64,000 nt of DNA from Mangrovicella endophytica (GTDB lineage: Bacteria; Pseudomonadota; Alphaproteobacteria; Rhizobiales; Rhizobiaceae): contig NZ_PKMZ01000011.1 of NCBI RefSeq assembly GCF_002893625.1, positions 1 through 64,000 on the forward strand, given 5' to 3'. Positions 38,314-46,855 of this stretch are shown here, piece by piece; position 1 is the first letter of the stretch, and every line of letters starts with the position of its first letter. The notes beneath the pieces are model-generated. The model saw only the letters and a list, made by a program, of their open reading frames with translations. It ran no database searches and had not been told where the DNA came from. A program made the position numbers and the translations under genes.

Positions 38314-39249
38314 CTACTCTGCCGGGGTCAGCAGGGCGTGGCGTTCCGGCGAAGCCCGGTAGACGCCGAGGCACAGGAACTCGTCGGAGAAGAAGCTCAG
38401 CTCCTCCAGCGCGCGGGAAACGGCCGGGTCATGCGGATGGCCTTCGATGTCGGCGTAGAACTGCGTCGCGGAGAAGCTGCCGCCGATCTGGTAGCTCTCC
38501 AGCTTCGTCATGTTGATGCCGTTGGTGGCAAAGCCGCCGAGCGCCTTGTAGAGCGCCGCCGGAATGTTGCGGACGCGGAAGACGAAGGTCGTCACGACGT
38601 TGCGGCTGATATAGGCGCGGCCGTTCTCGACCTGCTGCGGGTCACGCGCGGCCCAGAGGCTGAGGCGCCGTTCCTCCGGATCGGACAGCTGGATGCGCGC
38701 GGGATCGCGCAGCACGACGAAGCGGGTGACGTTGTTCTCGGAATCCTCGACATTGCGGTCGAGGATGGTCAGGCCGTAGTAGCCAGCGGCGAGCTCCGGC
38801 GCGAGCGCGGCCTGGGTCGGATCGCCCATCGCGGCGACTTCGCGCGCCGAGCCCGCGGTATCGCCGGCGATCATCGGCTTCCAGCCGTTGCGCCGCAGGT
38901 AGTCGCGGCACTGGCCGAGCGCATGGACGTGGCTGTGGACGGTGCGGATCTCCTCACGCCGAGCACCCGGCAGCGCCATCAGCTGGAAATGGATCGGCAT
39001 GAAATACTCGCCGACGATCTGCAGCTTCTTCTCCGGCATCAGCCGGTGAATGTCGGCAACGCGGCCGGCGAGCGTGTTCTCGATCGGGATCATGGCGAGC
39101 GCGGCCTCGCCGCTCTCCACTGCCGCAAAGGCATCGTCGAAGGACGGGCACGGCAGCGGCTCCAGGTCCGGATACATTGCCTGACAGGCCATGTCGGAGT
39201 TGGCGCCGGGCTCGCCCTGGAAGGCGATTTTCCCCATGACCCTGGTCAT
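38314..39249 (-). CDS. pheA: Prephenate dehydratase
   Basis: This 311-residue enzyme converts prephenate to phenylpyruvate in phenylalanine synthesis. The catalytic domain runs from [12 protein letters not shown] to about 190, with the conserved [11 protein letters not shown] and the TRF motif in NNVTRFVVL. The C-terminal ACT domain (about 210-295) includes ESYQIGG, matching the ESRP-type allosteric site as ESYQ, so feedback sensitivity may differ from ESRP enzymes. It lacks a chorismate mutase domain, as in other rhizobia. Its start overlaps the kdsB stop by four bases. Confidence 0.93.
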
Positions 39250-39992
39250 GCGAATGCTCCCGTCGTGCCGGCGTAGTGCGCGCGGGCGCGTTCCAGGTCG
39301 TCCGGCGCATCGACCCCGAGCGGCACGGTATCGACGATTTCGGCATCGATCCGCATGCCGGCCTCCAGTGCGCGCAGCTGCTCAAGCTTCTCACGCCGCT
39401 CCAGAGGCGAGGGCCCGAGCGCCACGAAGCGTTCCAGCGCCTCACGCCGATAGGCATAGAGCCCGACATGGTGGAAGAGCGGCCCCTCGCCCCAGGGCGC
39501 CGTTGCGCGCGTGAAGTACAGCGCCCTCAGCCGCGTCGGCGAGGTTTCGGTGCCGACCAGCTTCACGACATTTGGATTGGTGCGCTCGGCCTCTTCGCGG
39601 ATGTCGACGCAGAGTGTCGCAATGTCGCAGCGCGGATCGTCGAAGGGCGCGAGCACCCGCCGCACCGCCTCCGGCTCGACCGTCGGCAGGTCGCCCTGCA
39701 GGTTCACCACCGTCTCGACCGCACCGTCCGGATCGATTGCCCTGAGCGCCTCATGGATGCGGTCAGAGCCCGACTGATGCTCCATCCCGGTCATCACGGC
39801 CTCGTAGCCGGCTGCCTCCACCGCGTCCCGGATGGCCGCCGTATCGGTCGCCACCACAACCCGTCCGACAGCGGCCGCGACCGCCCGTTCGGCGACGCGC
39901 ACGATCATCGGCCGGCCGGCGATGTCGGCGAGCGGCTTGCCCGGCAGACGTGTCGAGGCCATTCGGGCCGGGATCAGGACGACGATGGACAT
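39246..39992 (-). CDS. kdsB: 3-deoxy-manno-octulosonate cytidylyltransferase
   Basis: From ATG 39992 this is a 248-residue enzyme that activates KDO as CMP-KDO for lipopolysaccharide. Motifs are [47 protein letters not shown] and [12 protein letters not shown] with [16 protein letters not shown]. An ATG four codons upstream (40004) is the alternative start. pheA follows with an ATGA overlap, a pairing common in rhizobia. The cytochrome c gene lies divergently upstream. Confidence 0.94.
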
Positions 39993-40187
39993 CTCAGCAG
40001 GCATCCGAAATCGATTGAGAACCAATCTAAAGTGGCTTGAAGCGAGGCGGTCGTGATGACAAAAGGTGCTTCGGCAGCGCTCCTTACAGCGGTTGCCACG
40101 AAACCGCAAAAGACCTAGCTTCCGCACGTTTTTTGCTTAGCAATCCGTCGGCTAGCGACAGGCCGACCGAGGGGAGCCGCCCGTTCA

Positions 40188-41579
40188 ATGGATTCGTTCG
40201 AGGCCAACAAGATCTTCGGCGCCGTCCTGGCGACGGTGTTCGTTCTGTTTGGCGGCAGCCTTCTGACCGGAAGCATCTTCCATTCCGAAGCCCCGGAAAA
40301 GCCGGGCTACCTGATCGAGGCGGCCGAGGAGAGCGGCGGCGGAGAGGCAGCGGGCGCGGCAGCCGGCGCCGAGGAGCCGCCGATCGCGGCGCTGCTGCAG
40401 ACCGCCGACGCTGAGGCGGGTGCGGCGCAGTTCAAGAAGTGCCAGGCGTGCCACACCGGCGAGGAAGGCGGCGCGAACCGTGTCGGTCCTCATCTGTGGG
40501 ACGTGGTGAACCGTCCGGTCGCATCCGTGTCGGACTTCTCCTATTCGGCTGCCATGAAGGACTTCTCCAAGGGCGGTGAAACGCACTGGGACTTCGACCA
40601 TCTCTATCACTTCCTGAAGGCGCCGAAGGAGTACGTCCCCGGCACCGCGATGGGCTTTGCCGGCCTGAAGAAGCCTGAGGACCGTGCGGCGCTCATCGCC
40701 TATCTGCGCACGCTCTCGGGCAACCCGGCTCCGCTGCCGGCAGCCCCAGCAGCCGACGCTGCGGCCGCTCCGGCCGAGGGTGCAGCTCCGGCCGCGGACG
40801 GCGCCGCGCCGGCGGCAGGCGCCGCGGCCCCGGCTGCAGATGCCGGCACGACCACCGCCGACACGCAGCAGGGCATGGGCCAGCCGCAGACGCCGGCAAC
40901 CACCGACACCGACACGGCCGCTCCGACGCCGGGCCCGGCGCCGACGCAAATCCCCTCCACCGGCGACAACGCACCGGCGGCTCCCGCCAATGCCAATAGC
41001 GGCGGCACACCGACGGGCGGCGACACATCGGCTCCGGCGGCCCAGGGCACCACCTCCGGCGCGCCTGCGCCGACGGCTCCGGCTCCGGCGGCACCCGCTC
41101 CTGCAGCTCCCGCGGCTCCGGCTCCCGCAGCGCCTGCTGCACCGGCAGCTCCTGCTCCGGCCGCGCCGCCGGCTGCCGGCCAGCAGACCGGCTCGGCCGC
41201 TCCGGCGGCCCCGGCTGCAGCGCCTCAGCAGACTGCATCGGTCGCGGGTGATCCGGCGGCCGGCAAGCAGGTCTTCAACAAGTGCAAGGCCTGCCATGCC
41301 GTCGGCGAAGGGGCCAAGAACAAGATCGGCCCGGAGCTGAACGGCATCGTCGGCGAGGCTCCGGCCGCGGTCGAAGGCTATTCCTTCTCGCCGGCGCTGC
41401 AGCAGTTCGCAGCAGCCAACCCGGCCTGGACGCCGGAGAACCTGACGCCCTGGCTGACGGACCCGAAGGCGACGGTGCCCGGCACCAAGATGGCCTTCCC
41501 GGGGCTGAAGAAGCCGGAAGACGTCGCCAACGTCATCGCCTATCTCGCGAGCTTCGACGAGAACGGCGCCGCCAAGTAA
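40188..41579 (+). CDS. Membrane-anchored two-domain cytochrome c
   Basis: This 463-residue protein has an uncleaved N-terminal anchor (about 9-29) and two class I cytochrome c domains. Domain 1 carries CQACH (85-89) with the axial Met near 155 in [15 protein letters not shown]; domain 2 carries CKACH (366-370) with Met 435 in [15 protein letters not shown]. They are joined by about 175 residues rich in Ala, Pro, Gly and Thr. CycM-like single-domain proteins sit beside kdsB in many rhizobia and donate electrons to terminal oxidases. The ATG has an AGGGGAG ribosome-binding site 11 bases away. The duplicated domain with a long linker is the unusual part. Confidence 0.9.
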
Positions 41580-41609: not shown

Positions 41610-41643
41610 AAAGGCCCGCGCTTCCCGGCGCGGGCCTTTTCGT
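41610..41643 (+). terminator. Rho-independent terminator after the cytochrome c gene
   Basis: AAAGGCCCGCGC (41610-41621) pairs perfectly with GCGCGGGCCTTT (41628-41639) around TTCCCG, followed by TCGTTT. The hairpin begins 30 bases after the stop. Confidence 0.85.
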
Positions 41644-41828
41644 TTGATCGTGCCGTGACCGCCTTGCCGCGCACACGGCTGACGGCATCTCGCAGCGGGT
41701 CGCGCCTTCCACCAAGTCGAAGAGACGCTCCCAATGGCGGCAAATCGTCCTCCGGTAGCTTGTCCAGCCGGACGATGGCCATAAACTCCTGCAAGCGTCC
41801 GCCGACAGCGGATTATCCGGAGACCGAC

Positions 41829-43814
41829 TTGACCGTTCTTCTGCGCCTTCTCGGCAGCCTCACCGCCACGATCATCCTCGCCGCACCGGCCTCCGCGCAG
41901 GAGGCACCGACCGCTTCGGCGCCGCAGACGCCGGCAGCGGCGACACCGGCCGCGGGCCCAACAGATGCCCAAGAGGCTGTGACGCAGGGCGAGTGGTCGG
42001 AATCGATCTCGCTGATCAAGCCGTCACGCTATCCCGCCGACTTCAAGCACTACGACTACGTCAATCCCGACGCGCCGAAGGGCGGCACGCTACATTCCGT
42101 GGCGATCGGCTCCTTCGACAGCTTCAACCCCTTCATCGTCAGGGGAACGCCGGCGGCCGGCCTTGCCAATTTCGGCGGCGGGCTCCTCTACGATACGCTG
42201 ATGGACCAGTCGACCGACGAGCCCTCGACCTCACATGCGATGATCGCCGAGGCGGTGCGCTATCCCAGCGACTACTCGTCGGTCACCTACCGGCTGGATC
42301 CGAAGGCGCGCTGGCATGACGGGCAGCCGATCACCGTCGAGGACGTGATCTGGAGCTTTCAGACGCTGATCAAGCTGCATCCGCAGTGGGCGACCTATTA
42401 CCAGAACGTGACGGCCGCGACGCAGACCGGCGAGCGCGAAATCACCTTCACCTTCAACCAGAAGAACAATCGCGAACTGCCCAACATCATGGGCGACCTG
42501 ACGATCCTGCCCAAGCACTGGTGGGAGGGCACGGATTCGAAGGGCAAGAAGCGCGACATCACTCAGCCGACCAGCGAGCTGCCGCTCGGCTCGGGCCCCT
42601 ACAAGATCTCGGCCTTCCGCATCGGCGATGCGATCACCTGGGAAAGGGTCGCCGACTACTGGGCGAAGGACAAGCCGGCGCGCGTCGGCCGCTATAACTT
42701 CGGCTCCATCGACTATGTCTATTTCCGCGACTCCAACGCGGCCTGGGAAGCCTTCAAGAAGGGCGGGCTCGACGACTACCGGCTCGAGAACAGCGCCCGC
42801 CGCTGGGCCGAGGGCTATGACTTCCCGGCCGCCAAGAATGGCAGCGTGATCCGCAAGGAGGTCGAGAACCACGACGTCGTGTCGATGCAGGCCTATGTCC
42901 TCAACAACCGCCTGCCGAAGTTCTCCGACATCCGCGTCCGCAAGGCGCTGACGCTCCTCTACAACTTCGAGGAGATGAACCGCACGCTGTTCTTCGGCTA
43001 CTATCGCCGTGTCGCCAGCTACTTCGAGAACAGCGAGCTCGCGGCCAAGGACCTGCCATCGCCGAAGGAGCTCGAATATCTGGAGCCGCTGCGCGGCAAG
43101 GTGCCGGAGGAGGTCTTCACCAAGCCCTTCACCCTGCCCGACTACAGCCAGCCGAACGCCGATCGGGCCTATCTGCGCGAGGCCTTCGATCTCCTGAAGC
43201 AGGCGGGCTACGAGTCCCGCGGCGGACGGATGGTGGATACCAGAACGGGGCAGCCCTTCACGATCGAGCTTCTCGGCGACGACCCGAGCGATGATCGCGT
43301 GCTCGGCCCCTTCGTGCGCCACCTCGGCCGCCTCGGCATCCAGGCAAATGTGCGCATCGTCGACAGCAACCAGTATATTGAGCGGATGCGCAACTTCGAC
43401 TTCGAAGTCGTCGCGATGAAGTACTATCCGCAGTCGCTCTCGCCCGGAAACGAGCAGCGTGATTTCTGGAGTTCCGCCGCCGCCGACGCGCCTGGAAGCC
43501 GCAACTATGCCGGCCTGAAGAACCCGGCGGTCGATCAGCTCATCGACAACATCATCCACGCACCCGACCGCGACTCGCTGGTCGCCGCCACACGCGCACT
43601 CGACCGCGTGATGCTGTGGAACTACGTCGTCGTGCCGCAGTGGTATCTCGGCAAGAGCTGGCTGGCCTACTGGAACACCTTGGACATGCCGGCGAAGGCA
43701 CCGGAATCCTCGGGCGTCGACATCTTCTCCTGGTGGGTCAAGGGCGCGTCCGCCCCGGCGGCATCCACGGCGACGCCGCAGCCTGCGGCAGCGCAAGCGC
43801 CGGCTCAGCCATGA
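41829..43814 (+). CDS. yejA: Peptide ABC transporter substrate-binding protein YejA (copy 1)
   Basis: The best start is TTG 41829, which has GGAG eight bases upstream and puts a Sec signal peptide (LLRLLGSLTATIILAAPASAQ) at the N-terminus, giving 661 residues. ATG 41775 would bury the signal. The body is SBP_bac_5/YejA type: HYDYVNPDAPKGG, GTLHSVAIGSFDSFNPF, WHDGQPITVEDVIWSF and LPLGSGPYKI. YejA captures oligopeptides, including microcin C and host antimicrobial peptides in other species. The Ala/Pro-rich tail is short. Translation is coupled to the second SBP gene by ATGA. Confidence 0.9.
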   Translation: MTVLLRLLGSLTATIILAAPASAQEAPTASAPQTPAAATPAAGPTDAQEAVTQGEWSESISLIKPSRYPADFKHYDYVNPDAPKGGTLHSVAIGSFDSFNPFIVRGTPAAGLANFGGGLLYDTLMDQSTDEPSTSHAMIAEAVRYPSDYSSVTYRLDPKARWHDGQPITVEDVIWSFQTLIKLHPQWATYYQNVTAATQTGEREITFTFNQKNNRELPNIMGDLTILPKHWWEGTDSKGKKRDITQPTSELPLGSGPYKISAFRIGDAITWERVADYWAKDKPARVGRYNFGSIDYVYFRDSNAAWEAFKKGGLDDYRLENSARRWAEGYDFPAAKNGSVIRKEVENHDVVSMQAYVLNNRLPKFSDIRVRKALTLLYNFEEMNRTLFFGYYRRVASYFENSELAAKDLPSPKELEYLEPLRGKVPEEVFTKPFTLPDYSQPNADRAYLREAFDLLKQAGYESRGGRMVDTRTGQPFTIELLGDDPSDDRVLGPFVRHLGRLGIQANVRIVDSNQYIERMRNFDFEVVAMKYYPQSLSPGNEQRDFWSSAAADAPGSRNYAGLKNPAVDQLIDNIIHAPDRDSLVAATRALDRVMLWNYVVVPQWYLGKSWLAYWNTLDMPAKAPESSGVDIFSWWVKGASAPAASTATPQPAAAQAPAQP

Positions 43815-45679
43815 CGATGCTTTTGTCGCGGCGCCGGTTCACCCAACTGGCTCTTGCCGGCGCTGCCGGCGCGGCACTGCGTCCGGCCTTCGCAGCCGTG
43901 CCTGCGGACACTGAGCTGCATGGCCTCTCCGCCTTCGGCGACCTGAAATATTCGGCCGGGTTCGCTCATTTCGACTATGCCTCGCCGCAAGCGCCGAGCG
44001 GGGGACGGTTGAACCTCTCGGTGCCGAGCTGGATCCTCAACCAGTCGCCGCTGACCTTCGACACGCTGAACACCTTCGTTCTGCGCGGCAACGCACCGCC
44101 GCGCATCGAGCTTCTCTACGACACGCTGATGGTCAGCTCGCTGGACGAGCCGGACGCGCTCTACGGCGCGCTGGCGGAGAGCGTCTCGATGTCGGCGGAC
44201 CGCAACCGCTTCACCTTCCGGCTGCGGCCGGAGGCGCGCTTCTCGACCGGGGCGCCGGTGACGGCGGACGATGTCGCCTTTTCCTACGAGACGCTGAAGA
44301 AGGACGGGCATCCGAGCCTGCAAGTGATGCTGGCCGAGGTGACGAGCGTCACTGCCAGCGACGAGCGCACCGCCGTGCTCACCTTCTCCGGCCGTCAGAA
44401 TGTCGCGCAGGCGCTCGGCACCTTCGGTGTCCCGATCATCCCGCGGGCCTTCTTTGCAGGCCGCGGTCTTGATTCCGTCAGCCGCGAGGCAGTGCCCGGC
44501 AGCGGGCAGTACCGGATCGGACGCGCCGAGTTCGGCACCTTCATCGAATATGAGAAGCGCGACGACTACTGGGCGAAGGACCTGCCCTTCGTGCGCGGGC
44601 TCAACCACTTCCAGACCATCCGGATCGACTTCTTCCGCGACCGCCAGCCGGCGCTGGAGGCCTTCAAGAAGGGTCTCATCACGGTCCGCGAGGAGTTCAC
44701 CACCAAGGACTGGGCGACGCAGTACGACTTCCCGGCCGTCACGAGCGGTGCAGTCGTCAGGCAGGAGTTCCCCGACGAGACGAGGCCGCATTTCCAATGC
44801 TGGGCGCTGAACCAGCGCCGCGAGCGTTTCACTGACGCGCGGGTGCGGCACGCGATCAACCTGTGCTTCGACTTCGAATGGACCAATGCCAACCTCCTCT
44901 TCGGTCAGCGGGTTCATTCGCAGTCGCCCTTCGAAGGCTCCGACTTCGTTGCGACCGGCGAGCCTTCGGAGGCCGAGCGCGCGCTCCTTGAGCCGCTGCG
45001 CGGCAAGGTGCCGGATGAGGTGTTCGGGCCTGTCTGGACACAGCCCGTCACCGACGCCTCGGGCGCGGACCGGGTGAAGCTGCGGGAGGCCGCAGGCCTC
45101 TTTGCCGCCGCCGGCTGGGCGCGGCAGGGCCGCCAGCTCGTTGATGCCAAGGGCGAGCCGTTCCGTCTCGAATACATGACCAACGGTCAGGAGCAGGGCC
45201 GCGTCTACGGCAAGTTCATCGATACGCTGCGGCTGATCGGCGTCGATGCCAGCATCCGTCTCGTCGATGCCGCGCAGTATCAGGAGCGCGTCAACCGCTT
45301 CGACTTCGACATGATCCTCGCCGCCTTCAGCTTCGCGCCGACGCCGACGCAGGACAGCCTGGCGATCTTCTTCGGCAGCGCCGCGCGGGACAATCCCGGT
45401 GCCTACAACTATCCGGGCATGGCGAGCGAGGCGGTGGATGCGCTGATCGCCAAGGCCGGTGCGGCACAGAGCCGCGAGGAGCTGACCACCGTCATGAAGG
45501 CGCTCGACCGCCTGCTGCGCTGGCGGCTGGACTGGCTGCCTAACATCACCTCCGACGTCCACCGTGTTGCATACTGGAACATGTTCGGATTCAAGGAACA
45601 GAAGCCCGAATACGGCTTCCCCATCGAATCGCTCTGGTGGTACGACGCACAGAAGGCTGCCGCGATCGGGAAGGCGTAA
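43811..45679 (+). CDS. Peptide ABC transporter substrate-binding protein YejA (copy 2)
   Basis: This 622-residue paralogue starts at ATG 43811, overlapping the first copy's stop by four bases. Its N-terminus [22 protein letters not shown] has a twin-arginine consensus (SRRRF) followed by a weakly hydrophobic stretch, so Tat export is likely, while copy 1 has a Sec signal. SBP_bac_5 features recur: HFDYASPQAPSGG, FSTGAPVTADDVAFSYETLK and VPGSGQYRI. Sequence identity with copy 1 looks moderate (estimated by eye). It is followed by yejB, 39 bp on. Confidence 0.9.
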   Translation: MTMLLSRRRFTQLALAGAAGAALRPAFAAVPADTELHGLSAFGDLKYSAGFAHFDYASPQAPSGGRLNLSVPSWILNQSPLTFDTLNTFVLRGNAPPRIELLYDTLMVSSLDEPDALYGALAESVSMSADRNRFTFRLRPEARFSTGAPVTADDVAFSYETLKKDGHPSLQVMLAEVTSVTASDERTAVLTFSGRQNVAQALGTFGVPIIPRAFFAGRGLDSVSREAVPGSGQYRIGRAEFGTFIEYEKRDDYWAKDLPFVRGLNHFQTIRIDFFRDRQPALEAFKKGLITVREEFTTKDWATQYDFPAVTSGAVVRQEFPDETRPHFQCWALNQRRERFTDARVRHAINLCFDFEWTNANLLFGQRVHSQSPFEGSDFVATGEPSEAERALLEPLRGKVPDEVFGPVWTQPVTDASGADRVKLREAAGLFAAAGWARQGRQLVDAKGEPFRLEYMTNGQEQGRVYGKFIDTLRLIGVDASIRLVDAAQYQERVNRFDFDMILAAFSFAPTPTQDSLAIFFGSAARDNPGAYNYPGMASEAVDALIAKAGAAQSREELTTVMKALDRLLRWRLDWLPNITSDVHRVAYWNMFGFKEQKPEYGFPIESLWWYDAQKAAAIGKA

Positions 45680-45718: not shown

Positions 45719-46855
45719 ATGGGCGCCTACATTCTCCGCCGCATCCTGCTGATGATACCGACGCTGATCGGCATCATGGCGGTGTCCTTCGTGGTCATCC
45801 AGTTCGCGCCGGGCGGCCCGATCGAGCAGGTCATCGCCAATCTGCAGGGCCAGAGCGGCGGTGCGATGGACCGCGTCAGCGGCGGCGGCGCCGACTTCGG
45901 CGGCCAGGGCGCGCAAGGCGGCGGTGAGAACTCGGGCTATCGCGGCGCGCAAGGGCTCGATCCGGAGTTCATCAAGCGGCTGGAGGTACAGTTCGGCTTC
46001 GACAAGCCGCCGCTCGAGCGCTTCGGCACCATGCTGTGGAACTATACGCGCTTCGATTTCGGCGAGAGCTACTTCCGCTCGGTGTCGGTGATCGACCTGA
46101 TCCTGGAAAAGATGCCGGTGTCGATCTCGCTCGGCCTCTGGATCACGCTCCTGTCCTACGCGATCTCGATCCCACTCGGGATCCGCAAGGCGCTGAACGA
46201 CGGCTCGGCCTTCGACGTGTGGACGTCCGGCATCATCATCATCGCCTACGCCATTCCGGGCTTCCTCTTTGCGGTTCTCCTGATCGTTCTCTTCGCCGGC
46301 GGCTCCTTCTATGACTGGTTTCCGCTGCGGGGCCTCCTCTCCGACAACGTCCAGGGCAACTGGTGCGCCTTCTGGAACGTCAACTGGGATGCCGGGCGCT
46401 GCGTCACCCAAACCATCCCGGACTACTTCTGGCACCTGACGCTGCCGCTGATCGCCCTGGCGCTCTCCGCCTTCGCGACGACGACACTGCTCACGAAGAA
46501 CTCCTTCCTCGACGAGATCCGCAAGCAGTATGTCACAACGGCCCGCGCCAAGGGGCTGACGGAACGGCGCGTCCTCTACGGCCACGTCTTCCGCAACGCC
46601 ATGCTGATCATCGTCGCGGGCTTCCCCGGCGCCTTCATCTCCGCCTTCTTCGCGGGATCGCTGCTGATCGAGACGATCTTCTCGCTCGACGGGCTCGGGC
46701 TGCTCGGTTTCGAGAGCATCTACAAGCGCGATTACCCTGTGGTGTTCGCGACGCTCTACATCTTCTCACTGCTCGGACTGGTGACGACCCTGATCTCCGA
46801 CCTCACCTACACCTGGATCGATCCACGCATCGATTTCGACCGGCGGGAGGTGTGA
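45719..46855 (+). CDS. yejB: Peptide ABC transporter permease YejB
   Basis: This 378-residue permease has the opening helix of the OppB/DppB family (GAYILRRILLMIPTLIGIMAVSFVVIQFAPGGP) and the inner-membrane permease motif in the C-terminal half (EIRKQYVTTARAKGLTERRVLYGHVFRNAM). After the first helix there is a glycine- and glutamine-rich stretch (about 50-75, GGGADFGGQGAQGGGEN) that E. coli YejB carries in similar form. RBS GGAG lies seven bases before the ATG. It pairs with YejE to form the channel. Confidence 0.93.
   Translation: MGAYILRRILLMIPTLIGIMAVSFVVIQFAPGGPIEQVIANLQGQSGGAMDRVSGGGADFGGQGAQGGGENSGYRGAQGLDPEFIKRLEVQFGFDKPPLERFGTMLWNYTRFDFGESYFRSVSVIDLILEKMPVSISLGLWITLLSYAISIPLGIRKALNDGSAFDVWTSGIIIIAYAIPGFLFAVLLIVLFAGGSFYDWFPLRGLLSDNVQGNWCAFWNVNWDAGRCVTQTIPDYFWHLTLPLIALALSAFATTTLLTKNSFLDEIRKQYVTTARAKGLTERRVLYGHVFRNAMLIIVAGFPGAFISAFFAGSLLIETIFSLDGLGLLGFESIYKRDYPVVFATLYIFSLLGLVTTLISDLTYTWIDPRIDFDRREV

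Follow-up and report, generated by a model that had tools for sequence, protein, structure and literature searches.

Membrane-anchored cytochromes c of the CycM type ordinarily carry one heme domain, and the gene described here raises the question of what a second heme domain at the end of such a protein is, where it came from, and what it could do. The window, by which we mean the whole stretch of 64,000 nucleotides analysed from Mangrovicella endophytica, had been the subject of a preliminary description, which placed at positions 40188-41579 a cytochrome c with two CycM-type domains joined by an Ala/Pro/Thr linker of ~175 residues. An open reading frame was found at exactly these positions, and its product of 463 aa contains two CxxCH motifs and two stretches matching Pfam Cytochrom_C (Table 1). 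The spacing of 69-70 residues given for the axial methionines was also correct, Met155 and Met435 lying 70 and 69 residues past the first cysteine (66 and 65 past the histidine), and the linker, long and flexible as described, measures 172 residues and is predicted to be disordered.

Table 1. Features of the cycM-c550 fusion gene and its immediate surroundings, in window positions.
Feature	Position	Strand	Basis or remark
kdsB, divergent neighbour (cytidylyltransferase)	39246..40127	-	PF02348
cycM-c550 fusion gene	40188..41579	+	ORF, ATG start, 463 aa; Pfam; alignment with relatives
Predicted N-terminal membrane anchor helix, residues 3-26	40194..40265	+	AF2 helix; conserved in 16 aligned proteins; hydrophobic by reading
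Proximal CycM-type heme domain, residues 70-180	40395..40727	+	Pfam Cytochrom_C; 3m97 structural match; tree
Heme site CQACH, residues 85-89	40440..40454	+	axial Met155 codon 40650-40652
Ala/Pro/Thr linker, residues 181-352	40728..41243	+	composition; AF2 pLDDT <50 over most of 197-345; sits where single-domain CycM has its C-terminal tail
Distal c550/CycA-type heme domain, residues 353-463	41244..41576	+	NF043008 best stretch 346-463; 75% identity to own cycA; tree; 8ed4 Z 18.9
Near-identical tract, 31 codons, residues 362-392	41271..41363	+	one synonymous difference from own cycA (G000:C2:83125-83490)
Heme site CKACH, residues 366-370	41283..41297	+	axial Met435 codon 41490-41492
12-bp G+C-rich hairpin, then TCGTTT (weak T-run), just 3' of the stop	41610..41645	+	direct reading; not listed by the consensus scan

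The gene is real and conserved, and it joins, as a natural fusion, a membrane-anchored cytochrome c to one of soluble type. Fifteen relatives retain the frame and both heme sites, which rules out a chance open frame or joined genes, and in the alignment of these proteins with that of the window, residues C85, C88, H89, M155, C366, C369, H370, and M435 are invariant in 16/16, while the length and sequence of the linker vary. A methionine 50-80 residues after the histidine was present in all 19 fused distal domains. Against 12 relatives, pN/pS was 0.32-0.60 for domain 1, 0.38-0.56 for domain 2, and 0.42-0.83 for the linker, where the alignment is poor; judged by these codon comparisons, both heme domains, each with its full ligand set, are evidently under purifying selection. 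A 595-aa open frame on the opposite strand of the same DNA is taken as a by-product of the high G+C content.

In the AlphaFold2 model both cytochrome domains are confident (ten-residue means 62-95), while the linker is mostly below 50 at residues 197-292 and 314-345, where it is predicted to be disordered, and the overall pTM of 0.36 suggests that the two heads have no fixed arrangement. The predicted N-terminal helix is hydrophobic and strongly conserved among the 16 aligned proteins, its role as an anchor in the mature protein being a prediction. The proximal domain is a class-I heme domain with CxxCH, an axial methionine and a CycM-like sequence, and it matches 3m97, the membrane-anchored c552 of Paracoccus denitrificans with its linker (Z 17.3, rmsd 2.7, 118 residues). 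With a predicted anchor at its N-terminus, followed by a short acidic spacer and a heme domain of class I, and with a kdsB-linked locus like that of other rhizobial CycM genes, the protein resembles CycM, c552, and cytochrome cy, whereas the known examples have one heme domain and the window protein has two complete heme sites, the second following the tail. For comparison, CycM of B. diazoefficiens is reported to be about 19 kDa (PMC6515984) and the heme domain of R. capsulatus cytochrome cy to have 100 residues (PMC7876108).

The distal domain is of a different type. Its NCBIfam match is NF043008 (cytochrome c-550 CycA), with 190 bits against a curated cut-off of 240, and the free CycA encoded in the same genome (contig C2, 146 aa, signal-peptide-like start), which scores 127 bits on this model and so likewise falls under the cut-off, is 75% identical to the distal domain. 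In a domain tree of 151 rows, 18 distal domains of the window's clade group with 12 free CycA sequences (SH-aLRT 99), and this group nests inside the c550 clade (SH-aLRT 98), apart from the CycM domains; a second tree analysis placed the distal domain in the CycA clade with 100/100. The nearest solved structure is 8ed4, the Pseudorhizobium c552 in complex with arsenite oxidase (Z 18.9, rmsd 1.3, 105 residues, 55% identity). Judging by sequence, the distal domain is a copy of soluble cytochrome c550 (CycA), with which it shares fold and ligands; CycA is free and has a signal peptide, whereas the distal domain, preceded by the linker in one frame, has none of its own and is held at the end of CycM. 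A doubled CycM is ruled out for the window protein, because the distal domain falls with CycA in the tree, and of the two CycM-type domains of the preliminary description only the proximal one is of that type.

Searching the genome with the full-length protein revealed no sister single-domain CycM, only the window frame and cycA answering, so that the fusion should do the CycM job; as a single-domain c550 is encoded as well, the distal head is not the sole c550. A separate cycA is in fact present in 10/10 fused genomes of the family, which argues against the idea that the exported protein is cleaved within its linker so as to set the distal head free, making the fusion a second source of soluble c550. 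Cleavage would be in keeping with a parent type that is a free c550 and with an unfolded linker, which should be accessible to proteases, but the fusion has been retained across genera, with CycM+c550 linkers of 101-180 residues, and we regard release of the head as very unlikely. With the c550 query, no free CycA was matched in G078, G087, G028, and G126 (G numbers denote genomes, L numbers loci and f numbers families), which have a single-headed CycM and returned only CycM itself. The mean net charge was -4.1 for fused distal domains (n=19) versus -0.4 for free CycA (n=27), and this more acidic average suggests that the partners of the fused domains may differ from those of free c550.

The linker consists of 40% Ala, 21% Pro, and 12% Thr, also contains Gly, Gln, and Asp, and has no Lys. 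In single-domain CycM, 74 of the 86 frames read have a C-terminal tail of at least 20 aa (median over the whole set 62, maximum 194), and tails of this size contain 32% Ala, 19% Pro, and 13% Glu. By position and make-up, the window linker is best read as an ordinary CycM C-terminal tail to whose end a heme domain has been attached; the stretch does join the two domains, as had been described, but it is a widespread CycM tail and not a special linker. Compared with shuffles, the linker reached z >5 against 9 of 60 single tails, 4 of 17 CycM+c550 linkers, and 2 of 16 CycM+CycM linkers; these results are mixed because of the low complexity, and the homology of linker and tail therefore rests on position more than on sequence. 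That tails without a second head are common suggests that the tail either has a value of its own or is neutral. At L044 (G048), two CycM-type domains are linked by a short Ala/Pro/acidic unit repeated almost perfectly in tandem, which has the look of a recent repeat expansion.

To learn how widespread the architecture is, 151 genomes of the GTDB family were surveyed, 150 of which gave some match, and the frames of at least 285 aa and the best 30 loci were read. CycM followed by c550 was found in 10/151 genomes (G000, G020, G022, G023, G027, G041, G101, G121, G123, and G136), G121 (L032) carrying CycM+c550+c550, and four others encode CycM-only multiples, with two domains in G048 and G057 and three in G024 and G124. 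Multi-heme CycM was thus found in 14/151 family genomes; single-domain CycM is the rule, as the preliminary description had held for rhizobia, and the architecture of the window protein belongs to a minority. Among 18 loci of named relatives, ten are fused (L009-L012, L014, L015, and L024, all Jiella; L016, Aureimonas glaciei; L025, Fulvimarina; L026, Aurantimonas), and six, all from Aureimonas (L017-L022), are single with a long tail, while in L013 and L023 the frame runs to the contig end and is outside both counts.

Several individual loci deserve mention. In L011 (Jiella flava, frame from 3938) and L032 of G121, CycM is followed by two c550 copies that are almost identical, which suggests a very recent internal duplication. 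The same kdsB-linked locus in G124 (L070) and G024 (L071) encodes an anchored protein whose three heme domains, all of CycM type, are joined by linkers of about 31-33 and 112-130 residues. In L009 (J. pelagia) a frameshift lies past the second CxxCH, in the distal domain, and is perhaps a sequencing error or a sign that this domain is decaying.

Across the order, 150 genomes were surveyed and the best frames of at least 277 aa read, so that the multi-heme count is a lower bound: a CycM frame with two or three heme domains was found in at least 21/150 genomes. These forms span ten families besides that of the window (f5, f14, f18, f28, f29, f30, f31, f34, f48, and f49) and have linkers of 29-211 residues; the typing as CycM or c550 is close for L192, L197, L198, and L201 and for the third domain of L190 and L193. 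The window protein is one case of a trend that recurs in the order and not a singular oddity. A match to the neighbouring cytidylyltransferase gene, which we take to be kdsB, lies beside cycM in 64/67 family loci, 52/64 order loci, and 18/18 named loci, and, outside the clade of c550 fusions, adjoins 20 of the 25 multi-heme loci; since this neighbour is so widely kept, the multi-heme forms appear to be mostly changes at one orthologous locus.

Multi-heme CycM seems, from the domain tree, to have arisen several times in the order. In f5 (96), f18 (95), f34 (97), f31 (98), and f48 (97), second domains cluster with first domains from the same protein or family, which points to separate duplications in these families, and f28 shows no such grouping of its first with its second domains; with 113 columns the tree is short, and many of its forks are open. 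A single origin of all fused c550 domains was rejected by the AU test (p-AU 0.0005, 18 rows) unless gene conversion intervened. The rejection arises from G022 and G123, whose distal domains cluster with the CycA of their own genomes, and without these two, in a subset chosen after the tree was seen, one clade of the remaining 16 was not rejected (AU p 0.31). Either two fusions took place, or cycA overwrote the distal domain in the genus of G022 and G123; the longest near-identical runs between distal domain and own cycA are 10 and 11 codons there, too short for any overwriting to be other than old. The proximal domains of the c550 fusions and four single ones form one group (SH-aLRT 91), within which the single-headed CycM of a close relative, G037, is nearest to that of the window in the tree (89). 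This proximal grouping slightly favours one old fusion followed by overwriting and losses, of which G037 may be an example, and the single head of G037 indicates that the second is dispensable there.

Exchange between cycA and the distal domain is more apparent in the window itself. Outside the near-identical tract, the distal domain differs from its own cycA at 15 synonymous and 29 amino-acid sites, and a run of 31 codons was reproduced in 0/2000 shuffles. Each of the other nine fused genomes shares at most 7-11 such codons in a row between its distal domain and its cycA, and comparisons across genomes gave 4-20. The tract contains the CxxCH, which is conserved for its function; as synonymous differences are common at this stretch in other genomes, a recent conversion tract fits best, and recent gene conversion between cycA and the distal domain is likely.

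Such recombination is what would be expected if CycM tails simply grew and gained heme domains that were kept as harmless. This near-neutral accretion would also agree with the wide variation in the length and sequence of the tails and with the frequency of gains and probable losses of second domains, but second domains have low pN/pS and all their ligands intact, and ten further families of the order have multi-heme forms. We therefore consider it quite unlikely that near-neutral accretion accounts for the second head.

CycM is known from work on B. japonicum and R. capsulatus to carry electrons from the bc1 complex to cytochrome c oxidase. We think it rather probable that the fusion puts two one-electron shuttle heads, working between bc1 and the cytochrome c oxidases, on a single anchor, the proximal head doing the work of CycM and the distal one being a leashed c550. 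The protein would be an inner-membrane-anchored class-I cytochrome c whose ancestral disordered tail now bears a second complete heme domain. Its proximal head, about 40 residues from the anchor, would do the ordinary CycM job between bc1 and oxidase, and its distal head would be a c550-type carrier that the leash holds permanently near the membrane, from where it could visit bc1, CtaD- and cbb3-type oxidases, or periplasmic donors using c550, with electrons perhaps also passing between the two heads. Heme loading, partners and a benefit of tethering are what we infer for this arrangement. The genome encodes five COX1-family genes, and among the four that were typed three scored above the CtaD cut-off and one above that of CcoN; three CtaD-type subunits and one CcoN are thus possible terminal partners. 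As donor to a photosynthetic reaction centre or to a copper nitrite reductase the protein was rejected, no match to Photo_RC or TIGR02376, respectively, being found in its own genome.

The predicted disorder of the linker makes a swinging distal head physically reasonable. A rough polymer estimate for 172 residues gave an rms reach of about 12 nm, a contour of 62 nm and an effective concentration at the membrane of ~0.6 mM, and the same rough estimate for 69 residues, as in cytochrome cy, gave 6.9 nm and 3.3 mM. According to PMC7876108, the heme domain of R. capsulatus cytochrome cy moves between complexes III and IV on a linker of 69 residues, the full linker being needed for fast transfer to the reaction centre and about 45 residues sufficing for respiration. 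By this comparison, a leash of 172 residues would be longer than is needed to reach an oxidase beside bc1, which would allow the head to visit separate complexes or donors in the periplasm.

The last possibility leads to a different role, in which the distal head would mainly serve soluble periplasmic enzymes and pass dehydrogenase electrons by way of the proximal head to the oxidases, the tail acting as a fishing line and not as a swing arm between bc1 and oxidase. Judged by the width of a periplasm, the estimated leash spans much of that compartment; other Cytochrom_C-domain proteins are encoded in the genome, and the c552 of 8ed4 is named there as the native electron acceptor of arsenite oxidase. 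No dehydrogenase gene was identified among the eight neighbours scanned, however, and the genome yielded neither copper nitrite reductase nor reaction centre, so that such a role appears unlikely to us. For the two-headed shuttle, we take a swing of the distal head between bc1 and oxidase as an inferred step, and the proposed swing-arm mechanism of the fusion is plausible.

Two heme domains on one membrane-anchored chain are also found in actinobacterial QcrC (diheme cytochrome c1/cc), which passes electrons from complex III to complex IV. QcrC is a bc1 subunit, whereas the window gene is unlinked to bc1 genes and its two heads are separated by a long disordered stretch. A di-heme c1 is also mentioned in the abstract of PMC5040959. 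The engineered bc1-CcoP-cyt cy fusions of R. capsulatus, as outlined in PMC7876108, likewise have a heme domain on a flexible linker at the end of a membrane respiratory protein; they are man-made and attached to a complex subunit, whereas the fusion described here is natural and attached to another carrier. In the open-licence PMC literature, mostly at the level of abstracts, we found no diheme CycM or tethered diheme carrier in this group.

Free and tethered cytochromes between complexes III and IV have so far been probed with engineered constructs. The genes described here form a natural series that shares its locus and its anchor and ranges from no extra head to two, with linkers of about 30 to 211 residues, and some of these natural constructs are present in named, cultured relatives, so that linker length, head number and head type can be compared directly in living bacteria. 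The CycM+c550 arrangement could help to test how tethering affects electron delivery. More speculatively, and with limited confidence, the CycM tail may be a general leash of Hyphomicrobiales that has repeatedly gained heme domains, giving two- and three-headed carriers whose proximal and distal heads would work with different oxidases or donors, pass electrons along inside a single chain and join the membrane-bound and soluble carrier pools.

The eight neighbours scanned include the cytidylyltransferase, a prephenate dehydratase, and family-5 solute-binding proteins, and no bc1 genes are linked. The hairpin just downstream of the fusion gene is a likely terminator. Beyond it, two tandem family-5 solute-binding proteins are encoded at 41655-45679, followed by a permease gene at 45719, which together presumably specify a peptide transporter of the YejAB type whose binding protein is doubled.
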